DNA of 51,522 nt. It comes from Bacteroidales bacterium. GTDB taxonomy: Bacteria > Bacteroidota > Bacteroidia > Bacteroidales > Bacteroidaceae. The notes beneath the pieces are model-generated. The model ran no database searches. It saw nothing but the letters and a program-made list of their open reading frames with translations, and was not told the origin of the DNA. Each line of letters starts with the position of its first letter. Within the stretch, counting starts at the first letter, position 1. Below are positions 1 through 50,679 of the stretch, piece by piece. The position numbers were made by a program, and so were the translations under genes. Location of the stretch: the NCBI GenBank assembly GCA_015060885.1, contig SUXO01000013.1, forward strand, positions 1-51,522, given 5' to 3'.

Positions 1-127
1 GCGCGACAAAGAACATCAAAGATATATTTCCAATGAGAGAATAACCGACAAATAACACCGAGAAGTCAAAAGCAAGAATGTTTAGTATCGTATATAGTGA
101 GTGCCCACACCTTTTTGCTACTGAGCC
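1..127 (+). repeat. Right end of MITE-like element (copy A, cut by window edge)
   Basis: These 127 bases match the right arm of the element at 6242-6712 with, by eye, a single base difference (gagaag here, gagatg there). The arm holds the conserved stretch from GCGCGACAAAGAAC to the terminal CTACTGAGCC. The left arm and left target-site copy lie outside the window, so the insertion cannot be delimited. The base after the terminus starts CTTTTTGC, which should recur to the left if an 8-bp duplication is present. It sits just downstream of the terminator of the leftward lpxK operon. Confidence 0.85.
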
Positions 128-3598: not shown

Positions 3599-3686
3599 GG
3601 AAAGATGCTCGAGTGGTTGAAGAGGCACGCCTGGAAAGCGTGTATACGCCAAAAGCGTATCGGGGGTTCGAATCCCCCTCTTTCCG
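3599..3686 (+). tRNA. tRNA-Ser(GGA)
   Basis: The 88-base gene folds into a class II tRNA. The acceptor stem is GGAAAGA (3599-3605) with TCTTTCC (3679-3685), discriminator G at 3686. The anticodon arm is CACGC-CTGGAAA-GCGTG with anticodon GGA at 3633-3635. There is a long variable arm (TATACGCC...GGCGTAT-like, typical of serine tRNAs) and a T-arm GGGGG-TTCGAAT-CCCCC. CCA is not encoded. It is the only tRNA I find in the window and lies 52 bases upstream of the ExbB gene. Confidence 0.97.
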
Positions 3687-6233: not shown

Positions 6234-6241
6234 GGAACAAC
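6234..6241 (+). repeat. Left 8-bp target-site duplication of MITE copy B
   Basis: GGAACAAC immediately precedes the element and is repeated exactly at 6713-6720 immediately after it, as expected from a staggered-cut insertion. Confidence 0.85.
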
Positions 6242-6712
6242 GGTTCAGTAGAAATTTAGTGTGGACAAATTGATTCTTTAATAAGTTGTGCTCCCTCGCG
6301 CTGCCCTTTGTATAACGAATTATCTCCTGCAATGGTAATTCTAAAAAGAAACCGGCACCGTTAAAATCATAGTGTTTATCCGAGCATTTGCAGGAGAGAG
6401 TGCGAGGAATGTTTGCCCGTGAGTTAGGTGCCGCAAGGCGACTAACTGAGGAAGTCCCGCAGCACCCTGCAAATGTGAGAAAGATAAACACGGCAAGGGA
6501 GGTTCGACTGAGGGTTCGCCTTTTGGCGACGTGAACAAAGAACCGAGCGACTGATTTTTCTCGCGTGCCGGGCGTTTGGTTCTTTGCGCGACAAAGAACA
6601 TCAAAGATATATTTCCAATGAGAGAATAACCGACAAATAACACCGAGATGTCAAAAGCAAGAATGTTTAGTATCGTATATAGTGAGTGCCCACACCTTTT
6701 TGCTACTGAGCC
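6242..6712 (+). mobile_element. MITE-like non-autonomous element, copy B (471 bp)
   Basis: The element begins GGTTCAGTAG and ends CTACTGAGCC. The first 26 bases and the reverse complement of the last 26 agree at 19 positions, giving imperfect terminal inverted repeats of the form GGYTCAGTAG...GTGTGGRCA. Perfect 8-bp duplications GGAACAAC flank it. About 125 bases on the left and 150 on the right are nearly identical in the other copies, while the centre differs. The right arm carries a hairpin GTTCTTTG-CGCGA-CAAAGAAC (6579-6599). No open frame resembles a transposase, so it must be moved in trans if it is active. It lies between the convergent 3' ends of the exb operon and folA, so no gene is broken. 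Confidence 0.85.
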
Positions 6713-6720
6713 GGAACAAC
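6713..6720 (+). repeat. Right 8-bp target-site duplication of MITE copy B
   Basis: GGAACAAC, an exact copy of 6234-6241, directly follows the element terminus CTACTGAGCC. Confidence 0.85.
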
Positions 6721-6724
6721 TCCT

Positions 6725-7219
6725 TTACTTCCTTCTTATGTATGTAACGAACTTGTAGTTATGCGCGTGCTTCTCGTCGGTGCCAAAACTCATTTGTTCC
6801 ACCACTTCCCACTCTCTCTTGTCGAATTGCGGGAAGAATGCATCGGCCTCTTCGGGAGTGTCTTCAACCTCGGTAAGGCACAGAATATCGGCAATGGGCA
6901 TTGCGTGCTTGTATAGCTGCTCGCCGCCAATTATATATACGATATCCTCGTCGGTACAGTTGGCCAGTGCCTCTTCGAGCGAGGTGAAATGCTCGGCTCC
7001 GGGGAAGTTGCTCTCCTTGCGCGACAACACTATGTTGCGGCGGTTGGGCAGGGCACCTTTGGGCAACGAGCGGAATGTGTTGCTGCCCATAATTATCGTG
7101 TGCCCGGTCGTGAGTTCCTTGAAACGTTTAAGGTCGTTGGGCAACCAATATATGAGCTTGTTGCAATGCCCTATGGCATTGTTCTCGGCTATTGCGGCAA
7201 TAAGTGCTAATCTGTACAT
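6725..7219 (-). CDS. folA: Dihydrofolate reductase
   Basis: This 164-residue enzyme reduces dihydrofolate to tetrahydrofolate with NADPH and is the trimethoprim target. AENNAIGHCNKLIYWLPNDL (near residues 11-30) contains the AIG and WxxPxDL signatures. In ordinary DHFR the second residue pair is LPW; here the loop reads LIYWLPND, keeping the W and the catalytic acidic residue in LPNDLKRF. TIIMGSNTFRSLP (NADPH phosphate region) and VYIIGGEQLY follow in order. It is 18 bases downstream of thyA, the enzyme that produces dihydrofolate, so the two are cotranscribed. Its 3' end is 5 bases from the right target duplication of the MITE. Confidence 0.95.
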   Translation of the reverse strand: MYRLALIAAIAENNAIGHCNKLIYWLPNDLKRFKELTTGHTIIMGSNTFRSLPKGALPNRRNIVLSRKESNFPGAEHFTSLEEALANCTDEDIVYIIGGEQLYKHAMPIADILCLTEVEDTPEEADAFFPQFDKREWEVVEQMSFGTDEKHAHNYKFVTYIRRK

Positions 7220-24950: not shown

Positions 24951-26552
24951 ATGGTAAGTGAATTTCAGACAAGAGCATTGCCGCACCAGGCGGTGAACGA
25001 GCAGTCGCTCAAACGTTTTGTCGCGGGCCTGAAAGGGTGGGATATACGCACCATAAATGCGGTGCGTGTGTTGCGCCGCAGCATCGATGCCCGCCAGCGC
25101 ACAATATATATAAACCTGTCGTTGCGTGTGTTTGTAAACGAGCAGCCCGCAAACGATGAATATGTGAGCCGTGAATATGGCAATGTCGAGGGCAGGCAGC
25201 CTGTGATTGTAGTGGGTGCAGGCCCCGCGGGCCTTTTTGCTGCGCTAAAACTCATAGAGAACGGCTTGCGTCCCATTGTAGTGGAGCGAGGCCGTGATGT
25301 CCGCACCCGCAAGGTCGACCTTGCAAACATTTCACGTACCCACAAGGTCAATCCCGAATCGAACTACTGTTTCGGCGAGGGCGGTGCCGGGGCCTATTCC
25401 GACGGAAAACTCTATACCCGCAGCAAGAAGCGTGGCAATATCGAGGGGGTGCTAAATATCTTCTGCCAGCACGGAGCGAGCCCCACAATCCTTGCCGATG
25501 CTCATCCGCACATAGGTACCGATAAATTGCCGCGCGTTATTGAGAATATGCGCAACACCATAATAGGTTGTGGAGGCGAGGTGCGCTTCGAAACCCGTAT
25601 GGAAGAGCTTCTTGTGCGCGCAGGCAAGGTTTGCGGCATACGCACCGACAAAGGAGAGATAGCAGCCGGGGCCGTTATTCTTGCGACAGGGCACTCGGCA
25701 AAGGATGTTTACCGCACGTTGCACGCCACGGGTATAACTCTTGAAAGTAAAGGCTTTGCAGTGGGAGTGCGTCTGGAACATCCCTCTGCGCTCATCGACA
25801 GTATACAATACCACAATCCCAACGGGCGTGGGAAATACCTGCCTGCTGCCGAATACAGTTTTACCACACAGGTCGATGGGCGCGGTGTGTACAGTTTCTG
25901 TATGTGTCCCGGCGGTGTGATAATCCCGTCGGCATCGGCCGAAAAGGAGCTCCTTGTAAATGGAATGTCGCCCTCGCATCGCGGTGGCGCGTGGAGCAAT
26001 TCGGGTATGGTGGTGCAGGTGAACCCCGAAGATGTTTTCTTGCCCGGAATGCAGATAGATGTCGATGGCGTGGAGCCTGTTGCCGAGGGTTCACCTCTTT
26101 GTGTGATGAACTTCCAGGAGAAGCTCGAAAGGCTCTGTTGGTCGATGGGCAACTATCGCCAGAGTGCGCCCGCACAGCGTATGGGCGATTTTGTTGCGCG
26201 CAAATTAAGCTACGACCTCCCAAAAAGTTCCTATGCTCCGGGGCTAATATCTTCGCCCTTGCACTTTTGGATGCCCGAATTTATATCCTCGCGACTGAAA
26301 CGTGGTTTCGAACAGTTCGGCAAGATGTCGCGCGGCTTTCTCACCAACGAGGCGGTGATGATTGGTGTGGAAACACGCACCTCCTCACCGGTGCGCATTG
26401 TACGCGATGCTGAAACTCTTCAACACGTCGATATTGAGGGCCTCTTCCCTTGTGGCGAGGGAGCAGGTTATGCCGGTGGCATTGTGTCGGCAGCCGTCGA
26501 TGGCGAGCGTTGTGCCGTTTCGGCCTGTGAGTATGTGACACGCCTTGATTAA
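24951..26552 (+). CDS. FAD-dependent oxidoreductase (COG2509-type dehydrogenase)
   Basis: A 533-residue flavoprotein. The FAD-binding Rossmann motif is VIVVGAGPAGLFAALKLIEN (about residues 83-102) followed by VVERG. The first about 75 residues form a separate small domain (LKRFVAGLKGWDIRTINAVR) typical of this group. NYCFGEGGAGAYSDGKLYTR (about 143-162), ATGHSAKDVYRTLHATGI and the C-terminal GLFPCGEGAGYAGGIVSAAVDG are hallmark blocks of the widespread uncharacterised family. The physiological substrate is unknown. The gene ends 2 bases before the left target duplication of MITE copy C, so the insertion spared the coding region narrowly. Confidence 0.85.
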   Translation: MVSEFQTRALPHQAVNEQSLKRFVAGLKGWDIRTINAVRVLRRSIDARQRTIYINLSLRVFVNEQPANDEYVSREYGNVEGRQPVIVVGAGPAGLFAALKLIENGLRPIVVERGRDVRTRKVDLANISRTHKVNPESNYCFGEGGAGAYSDGKLYTRSKKRGNIEGVLNIFCQHGASPTILADAHPHIGTDKLPRVIENMRNTIIGCGGEVRFETRMEELLVRAGKVCGIRTDKGEIAAGAVILATGHSAKDVYRTLHATGITLESKGFAVGVRLEHPSALIDSIQYHNPNGRGKYLPAAEYSFTTQVDGRGVYSFCMCPGGVIIPSASAEKELLVNGMSPSHRGGAWSNSGMVVQVNPEDVFLPGMQIDVDGVEPVAEGSPLCVMNFQEKLERLCWSMGNYRQSAPAQRMGDFVARKLSYDLPKSSYAPGLISSPLHFWMPEFISSRLKRGFEQFGKMSRGFLTNEAVMIGVETRTSSPVRIVRDAETLQHVDIEGLFPCGEGAGYAGGIVSAAVDGERCAVSACEYVTRLD

Positions 26553-26554
26553 GC

Positions 26555-26562
26555 AATATAAC
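26555..26562 (+). repeat. Left 8-bp target-site duplication of MITE copy C
   Basis: AATATAAC directly before the element, repeated exactly at 27156-27163. Confidence 0.85.
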
Positions 26563-27155
26563 GGTTCAGTAGAAATTTAGTGTGGACAAATTGATTCTTT
26601 AATAAGTTGTGCTCCCTCACGCTGCCCTTTGTATAACGAATTATCTCCTGCAATGGTAATTCTCAAAAAAGGAACCGGCACCGTTAAAATCATAGCGAAA
26701 AGGCCTGTTGACGACAGGCCATTGTGCGAAAGCTCGTGCAAATGAGCGAGTGAAAGTTTGCTTGCACGCAAAGCGAATGCAGCCGAGGTTGCGCGAAGCG
26801 AGTACTGTCTGACATAAGTTGACAATGCTTGCTGTTCGCATCCCGCACTACGTGCGACTAATTGCTGCAAGCATTGTCTATTAAATTACATTTAATTCCA
26901 CAGCACCCTGCAAACGGCAGATAGGCTTGCAGCGGCAAGCGAGGAACGAACGAGTTATATTGTGCAACAATTCACGAGTCGAGGCGTGAGCGACTGATTT
27001 TACTCGCGTGCCGGGCGTTTGGTTCTTTGCGCGACAAAGAACGTCAAAGATATATTTCCAATGAGAGAATAACCGACAAATAACACCGAGAAGTCAAAAG
27101 CAAGAATGTTTGGTATCGTATATAGTGAGTGCCCACACCTTTTTGCTACTGAGCC
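26563..27155 (+). mobile_element. MITE-like non-autonomous element, copy C (593 bp)
   Basis: Same termini and arms as copy B (GGTTCAGTAG ... CTACTGAGCC) in the same orientation, flanked by a perfect AATATAAC duplication. The left arm to about 26690 and right arm from about 27000 are almost identical to copy B. The centre is longer and shares CAGCACCCTGCAAACGGCAG and GGCTTGCAGCGGCAAGCGAG with copy D rather than B. A 58-base hairpin unit (GACAATGCTTGC at 26821-26832, GCAAGCATTGTC at 26867-26878, then ATTAAAT-TAC-ATTTAAT) appears inserted in the centre. No coding capacity. It lies between the convergent 3' ends of the FAD oxidoreductase and HTH genes. Confidence 0.85.
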
Positions 27156-27163
27156 AATATAAC
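27156..27163 (+). repeat. Right 8-bp target-site duplication of MITE copy C
   Basis: AATATAAC, exact copy of 26555-26562, directly after CTACTGAGCC. Confidence 0.85.
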
Positions 27164-50105: not shown

Positions 50106-50131
50106 GTAGGGGCAGACCGATGTGTCTGCCC
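50106..50131 (+). repeat. Short palindromic repeat, GCAGACC type
   Basis: GTAGGGGCAGACC followed by GATGTGTCTGCCC. Differs from 48546-48571 by one base. Confidence 0.75.
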
Positions 50132-50196
50132 GAATGAAAGCATTGCGCATTGGTTGTGCGCACATACCGGTAGCACCCCTACTATAAGATAATAGT

Positions 50197-50679
50197 GGCT
50201 CAGTCGCAAAAAGGTGTGAGCACTCACTATATACGATACTAAACATTCTTTCTTTTGACTTCTCGGTGTTATTTGTCGGTTATTCTCTCATTGGAAATAT
50301 ATCTTTGACGTTCTTTGTCGCGCAAAGAACCAAACGCCCGGCACACGGGGCGTTCAAGTCGCTCCTGTCTCTGCTCGTGAATTGCTTAAAGCAATATAAC
50401 TCGTTCGACACTCGCTTGCCGCTGCAAGCCTTTCTGCCGTTTGCAGGGTGCTGCGTAACTCGCTTCGTGCGGCTATATAAGATAAATTATACCCGCACTG
50501 CGCTCAAACAGTACTCGCACAATGGCCTGCCCTCGGCAGGGCTCTCCGCTGTCTCTCTTACGGTGCCGGTTTCTTTTTAGAATTACCATTGCAGGAGTTA
50601 TTTCGTTATACAAAGGGCAGCGTGAGGGAGCACAACTTATTAAAGAATCAATTTGTCCACACTAAATTTCTACTGAACC
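50197..50679 (-). mobile_element. MITE-like non-autonomous element, copy D (483 bp, inverted)
   Basis: This is the same element as copies B and C in the opposite orientation: read on the minus strand it begins GGTTCAGTAG and ends CGACTGAGCC. Arms are slightly diverged (GCGACTGAGCC for GCTACTGAGCC; GTGCTCACACC for GTGCCCACACC). The centre shares GCAGGCCATTGTGCGA and CAGCACCCTGCAAACGGCAG with copy C. No flanking duplication is present (ATAATAGT on one side, CTGTTTCG on the other), suggesting an older insertion or one whose flank was rearranged. No coding capacity. Confidence 0.8.

Follow-up and report, generated by a model that had tools for sequence, protein, structure and literature searches.

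The short repeats in the window (the whole stretch of DNA that was analysed: 51,522 nucleotides, contig SUXO01000013.1 of a Bacteroidales bacterium) are very probably non-autonomous ISL3 elements. Judging from sequence, we believe that ISL3 mobilizes them in trans, because of the matches between their ends and those of ISL3 elements and because of their 8-bp duplications. The centre of such an element is one unit, or two head-to-head units, of ~255 nt each, with a fold that is conserved on one strand. In related genomes, the unit is found between three types of ISL3 ends and two other types of ends, in both orientations, so we infer an independent module that is mobile or selected. Our account as a whole, including the ISL3 ends, the conserved fold, the exchange of ends, and a REP-like hitchhiking step, is probably correct.

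Elements in the window and their copies

The first-pass annotation described a 471-bp element with 8-bp duplications and imperfect inverted ends, and our measurements gave the same values. The additional copies that it listed are real, and the ends and duplications that we found support its description of a non-autonomous transposable element family with 8-bp duplications. The features are (+ or - strand where one applies):

6234..6241: target duplication GGAACAAC, left copy, identical in sequence to the right copy
6242-6712: element of 471 bp, with 19/26 positions alike between its inverted ends and GGAACAAC on both sides
6242..6267, +: left terminal repeat, which corresponds to the tnp-3' end of ISL3 elements (20/24 for L238, 21/24 for L144, 22/24 for L163, and 26/27 for the remnant in L062)
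6349..6602, +: folding unit of the 471-bp element, full length to covariance model R1 (206.9 bits)
6352..6358, +: closing helix P1, 5' side (CCGGCAC), from the consensus fold
6565..6571, +: closing helix P1, 3' side (GTGCCGG), from the consensus fold
6578..6599, +: A/T-rich hairpin after P1 (GGTTCTTTGCGCGACAAAGAAC), from the fold
6687..6712, -: right terminal repeat, 24/24 identical to the tnp-5' ends of the ISL3 elements in L238 and L248
6713..6720: target duplication GGAACAAC, right copy, an exact match to the left copy
26555..26562: target duplication AATATAAC, left copy, 2 bp past the stop codon of the ORF at 24951-26552
26563..27155, +: second complete element, 593 bp, with an insertion within the unit and exact AATATAAC duplications
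26672..27045, +: folding unit of the second element (120.2 bits, model R1)
27156..27163: target duplication AATATAAC, right copy, an exact match to the left copy
50197..50679, -: third complete element, 483 bp, whose flanks are unlike each other, with no duplication (comparison of ends and flanks)
50307..50572, -: folding unit of the third element (198.7 bits, model R1)
1..127, +: fourth element, right arm only, cut by the contig start (the window is the whole of contig C40)

Another type of intergenic repeat, the palindromic GTAGGGGCG..CGCCC, occurs at 50107-50135 of the window as well as at L013 and L027.

The 2.24-Mb draft genome contains 84 exact sites for GGYTCAGTAG and just 1 site for the reversed control pattern, so the recurrence of this motif is not due to chance. 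A search of the whole genome with the two arms, as the first-pass annotation had proposed, gave at least 40 matches for the left arm (the best 40 of 77 candidates) and at least 40 for the right arm (the best 40 of 102). If these best 40 matches for each arm and the GGYTCAGTAG sites are merged at 700 bp, then ends or arms of the element lie at 87 places on 57 of the 64 contigs. The elements are mosaic and are shared through amplification.

Among 15 complete type-1 copies in the loci that we examined, 6 have an exact 8-bp duplication, one (L019) has a duplication with a single mismatch, and 8 have none, which counts against our account. Around the folding units, we found exact 8-bp duplications with matching GG..CC ends in 9 of 37 clusters from the draft genome and in 8 of 52 other clusters. 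The 52 include at least one pair, L243 and L283, that looks like a single locus in two records. When right flanks were swapped as a control, there were no such cases (0/740 for the draft genome's clusters and 0/1040 for the others, or 0/1780 in total). Where duplications are missing, the copies may have recombined, may be old, or may be chimeric joins in the draft assembly. Three copies in the draft genome (L011, L035, and L038) have a common right flank (TATTTTAGCACT), so duplication or chimeric assembly is suspected.

We rejected carriage by phages or plasmids: there were no matches for the window element among phages, for the second element among plasmids, for a unit of genome G114 among plasmids and phages, or for a unit of genome G700 among plasmids, and the long core pattern had 0 hits in viral contigs.

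ISL3 as the probable source of the transposase

The first-pass annotation left the choice between ISL3 and IS1595 open. It is settled in favor of ISL3 by matches at transposase genes for both ends and by five duplicated copies in genome G051. The right end of the 471-bp element is identical (24/24) to the tnp-5' end of the ISL3 genes in L238 and L248, and the left end matches ISL3 tnp-3' ends (L238, L144, L163, and L062) at 20-23 of 24 positions. Thus, the window element keeps both of the unequal ends of ISL3. In L144, the end GGCTCAGTAGAAATTTACTGTGGG lies directly 3' of the ISL3 gene, and L163 and L062 contain remnants of the 3' part of an ISL3 gene with the same end. The proteins of L238, L144, and L147 score as DDE_Tnp_ISL3 (E = 1e-51 to 1e-52), and the type-1 ends belong to an ISL3 transposase of 333 residues. 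The five copies in G051 (L146-L149 and L159; four of 1423 bp and one of 1561 bp) have inverted ends that match at 24/24 positions and exact 8-bp duplications.

The first-pass annotation suggested looking for an insertion sequence with matching ends; ISL3 elements with such an end were found in other records (L238 and L248) and not in the draft genome itself. The ISL3 element of L238 is 1423 bp, with no duplication seen, and the one in L248 is cut by the contig end; both start with the right end of the window element. In L248 (JAFTQC010000004.1, labelled Clostridia), the type-1 ISL3 element starts within an array at 6600-6803 that looks by eye like a CRISPR, with the repeat GTCTAATAAGACATTTTAATTTCTACTATTGTAGAT, which may be a Cas12a-like CRISPR repeat.

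We propose that an ISL3 transposase from elsewhere would cut and insert the window elements, duplicating 8 bp, and that the folding unit would have taken the place of the transposase gene. PF01610 (ISL3) matches 36 of 101 genomes at E = 1e-3, including 19 of the 44 genomes in the genus, but there were 0 matches in the draft genome at this threshold, and this argues against our account. The draft is 88.5% complete, so the absence makes a cognate transposase in this genome less likely without excluding one; the ISL3 gene could have been lost from an assembly that breaks at repeats. An autonomous copy in the draft genome was also sought among pairs of GGYTCAGTAG sites, but by eye the list of exact sites contains no pair that is 1-2.5 kb apart, so we rejected this candidate.

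IS1595 and IS6-type families also duplicate 8 bp, and some of their members begin with GG. It is extremely unlikely that transposases of either type mobilize the elements, and the ISL3 ends weaken this reading. PF12762 (IS1595) is found in 17 of 101 genomes, with 0 matches in the genome that contains the window. Among 30 IS1595 loci from relatives (L084-L113), ends with an 8-bp duplication were recognizable in 4, and none of these start with GGYTCAG; GGTTCAGCAG is present in 5 IS1595 loci, but there it is inside the transposase-coding stretch. We considered the IS6 type because the type-2 ends resemble GGCTCTGTTGCAAA, which we take to be an IS6100-like start. PF13610 (IS6-type) matched 4 of 101 genomes, with just 2 above the cut-off, and the matching proteins from the genus look by eye like the IS3 type. 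We therefore rejected both sources, with the IS1595 ends being resolved for 4 of 30 loci.

A conserved fold in the centre of the elements

The first-pass annotation described the centre of the element as variable and without a transposase. There is indeed no transposase gene inside, but the remark about variability overlooked a conserved fold. P1 is the helix that closes the fold. Of two further arms, the first is long and contains the internal motif with the highest conservation, and an A/T-rich hairpin follows P1. With a profile from nine cores, we located 153 places in the loci examined at that stage, of which 58 were nearly full, and we aligned 22 of 25 representatives (under 85% identity; three with long insertions were left out).

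The fold of the unit is conserved on one strand, as shown by covariation relative to shuffles that ignore the relatedness of the sequences. The consensus fold has 44 pairs, of which 42 have double compensatory changes. In an alignment that was built from sequence alone, 90.6% of the cells are paired, with 240 double-changed cells as compared to 71 after shuffling. The covariation score is 0.668 versus 0.213 for shuffled alignments and was reached in 0 of 500 shuffles, while slid versions of the structure gave at most 0.126; the counts of pairs and of pair types are also above those in all 500 shuffles. The predicted fold of a single sequence (L228, 87 pairs) gives a similar result, with 70.7% of cells paired and 310 double-changed cells versus 138 shuffled (0/500), and its pair types were reached in 1 of 500 shuffles. 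That shuffling leaves the relatedness of the sequences in place is a weakness of our account.

The energies of the folds also point to one strand. The z-scores for single folds are -5.82 (L228) and -4.05 (the window's unit). The consensus energy is -24.1 with 44 pairs for the forward strand and -17.6 with 20 pairs for the reverse complement, as compared to about 0 for shuffled columns, and in 17 of 22 single sequences, the forward strand is the one that folds better. This polarity fits RNA or single-stranded DNA alike.

At the gathering score, the unit has no match in Rfam 15. The single match in the window at the gathering score is a tRNA at 3599-3686; the best match for the element is HOXA11-AS1_6, with 15.3 of 50 bits (E = 0.48); and in six loci that contain units, there were three matches under the gathering score, none of which were on a unit. 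The first-pass annotation would be refuted if the arms lay within a conserved non-coding RNA that has the same flanks elsewhere. There is a conserved structure inside the element, which is half of that case, but as far as we have seen the flanks in other species are not the same, and mobility is not refuted. In some distant copies (L364 and L369), the loop of the trailing hairpin repeats the 5' strand of P1 (CTTGAT..ATCAAG and CCTTGAC..GTCAAGG), and a pseudoknot or a switch is possible.

The unit lies between different ends

Units with exact duplications are found between type-1 ends (GGYTCAGTAG) and between type-2 ends (GGCTCACCTGCAAA). Type-2 ends also belong to ISL3 elements of ~1430 bp with exact 8-bp duplications (L119, L120, and L127). 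Type-3 ends (GGCTCAACGTAAAA) surround units in L322 and L323, again with exact duplications, and are like the ends of the ISL3 element L145. Two other types were seen: TTATGGNGATTGAGG (type 4) around units of genome G025, with both ends seen in L327 to L330; and TGTCCGGTWAA (type 5) around units of genome G021, with both ends seen in L333 and L334, while L332 is mixed. L063 and L071, from different species and with different types of ends, have cores that are 86% identical over 707 nt and lie in opposite orientations. We suggest that the unit would acquire new ends via recombination between repeats. Some clusters fit less well: in 37 clusters of units that have no duplication, ISL3-like ends flank both sides in 14, one side in 10, and neither side in 13, and these 13 (4 of which have type-4 ends on one or both sides) count against our account.

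Distribution of the unit

Covariance model R1, with at most ~20 candidates scored per genome, has matches in 53 of 101 genomes. Within the genus, it matches 43 of 44 genomes (including weak matches in G009, E = 7.6e-5, and G015, E = 3.1e-6); outside the genus, it matches 10 of 57, and these matches are weak (E = 5e-9 at best). In a family-wide set, R1 matches 52 of 301 genomes, and is strong in the genus only (the best E outside is 3.1e-11). The left arm matches 29 of 101 genomes, all within the genus. G029 and G021 contain a shorter form of 178 nt, and sister genera have related short forms that keep P1, the core hairpin, and the trailing hairpin.

Across the phylum, the exact core pattern has 19 sites in 6 of 395 genomes, whereas the reversed control has 4, in 4 genomes. 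When R1 was run on places preselected by the core pattern, sites from G451, G431, G673, G700, and G657 had E = 1.7e-6 to 1e-3, and none of the places from G114 were significant (best E = 0.14), with copies that look similar by eye. Given these modest scores and the result for G114, our claim is weaker for the phylum than for the genus. We put it forward tentatively: the unit would represent a family of structured nucleic acids of this phylum (~180-260 nt, with a closing helix, the core GAGGACUGUUUGAGCG..GCGAGUUCCGCAGC, and a trailing A/T hairpin) that has no entry in Rfam 15 and that wears ends from several transposons that are unrelated to each other, namely three types of ISL3 and at least two further types. 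One fold would exploit many transposases, and it would be selected for its own function, as RNA or as single-stranded DNA.

Two distant loci have arrangements of their own. L364 (from G114) contains seven unit-like places in one orientation within 20 kb, among genes that look accessory, with one gene occurring twice between units; we considered a cassette array and rejected it, as the genes between the units are mixed in strand and kind. L369, from a relative at the class level, has a head-to-head pair of unit-like places (752-1191 and 1343, minus) with different stem sequences.

Relation to known systems

The window element shares with ISL3 insertion sequences the unequal ends that start with GG (20-24 of 24 positions), the 8-bp duplications, and the presence of a PF01610 transposase in carriers of such ends. 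It differs in lacking a transposase gene and in containing a conserved folding unit that is unrelated to that gene. In the literature that we searched, with partial coverage, we found no description of an ISL3 MITE of this kind or of this element.

Like bacterial MITEs and the mosaic, Tn3-derived TIMEs, the elements are short, multicopy, and intergenic, with terminal repeats, no transposase, and mosaics made by recombination (PMC4133298). In the part of that work available to us, TIMEs are Tn3-derived and mostly single copy (PMC4133298), whereas here there are dozens of copies, with ends that are swapped around one conserved core.

There is also a likeness to REP, BIME, and REPIN elements and their TnpA-REP (RAYT) proteins, which share one-strand folding, intergenic location, high copy number, head-to-head dimers, and occurrence in the same phylum (PMC6006769 and PMC3733652, as far as seen). 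The portions consulted describe head-to-head dimers as the common arrangement of REPs (PMC3733652), and in our data 20 of 22 multi-unit clusters are head to head, with the 5' ends adjacent, as is characteristic of intergenic palindromic units of the REP type. Typical REPs are 20-40 bp (PMC3733652, in part), while our unit is ~180-260 nt with a multi-helix fold. TnpA-REP subclass 2.6 of Bacteroidetes is described, in the sections seen, as having "atypical secondary structures" on its flanks, of which the genome contains further copies, and as lacking a consensus for a GTAG/GTGG-type guide tetranucleotide (PMC6006769). Our unit could be one of these structures.

A motif search found no RAYT genes beside units in 370 loci, which is a point against our account, although this search is weak, as it missed the known Y1 protein of L366. 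We also rejected a RAYT between neighboring units: the ORFs listed there for L316, L322, and L371 are, by eye, other genes. At 938-2215 of L366, an IS200-type Y1 transposase gene (PF01797, E = 6.9e-34) lies between two unit-like places. Candidate structured RNAs from human microbiomes include palindromic candidates in Bacteroidetes, but the lengths given in the excerpt consulted are 40-132 bp (PMC8040213).

What is the unit?

For the unit, we favor a large REP-like hitchhiking element, with a non-coding RNA as a close rival. In the REP-like step, a structured element would have multiplied in intergenic DNA, would be recognized as a single strand, and would now be riding several transposases.

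In the rival reading, the unit encodes a structured non-coding RNA, as one gene or as a family, whose action is in trans or on the transposons themselves, and the ends do no more than spread it; we consider this possible, if rather doubtful. Long-range compensatory helices persist at a mean column identity of 60%, and the fold has polarity, with 32 cells of the G-U type and 15 of A-C (in a structure that was predicted with G-U allowed). G-T wobbles in single-stranded DNA would give equal polarity, however, and the dozens of near-identical copies per genome count against an RNA gene. The neighboring genes bear on this question as well. Among the 60 of 70 clusters that could be assessed (rough ORF calls on both sides), the neighbors are convergent for 25 and divergent for 4; they are co-directional for the rest, with the unit in the same sense for 11, against it for 14, and a dimer between them for 6. 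This indifference to orientation fits an RNA that acts in trans.

The convergent genes could instead point to a cis-acting 3' element (a terminator, an insulator, or a stabilizer of mRNA) that renders insertion behind genes harmless, and several species have a T-run after P1. We think that this is unlikely. The sense of the upstream gene is not preferred, the same placement is expected of any insertion that is selected against in promoters, and the gene calls are rough, with a background in the window of 12 gaps. Promoters are avoided while the sense of the unit does not matter, which speaks against a simple role in the 3' end of the mRNA.

Finally, it is very unlikely that the centre is neutral filler with covariation as a by-product of palindrome-forming mutations or of a few amplified master copies: the elements are mosaic and amplified, and the shuffles are blind to relatedness, but the two strands of P1 have changed in concert in several lineages although more than 200 nt separate them, the slid controls stay at or below 0.126, and the pair and type counts are above those of all 500 shuffles.

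Implications

In the usual view, MITEs are what a deletion has left, and their centres have no meaning. In these elements, it is the centre that is conserved, and the ends are exchanged. If our account is true, then this repeat accounts for the breakage of drafts of these gut genomes at one kind of repeat, and a conserved fold can be a selfish unit that parasitizes several transposases. Alternatively, if the unit is an RNA, then it would be a dispersed family that was overlooked because it breaks draft assemblies. The model and the covariance profile provide a concrete basis for testing for a REP-like or an RNA function in Bacteroidales.
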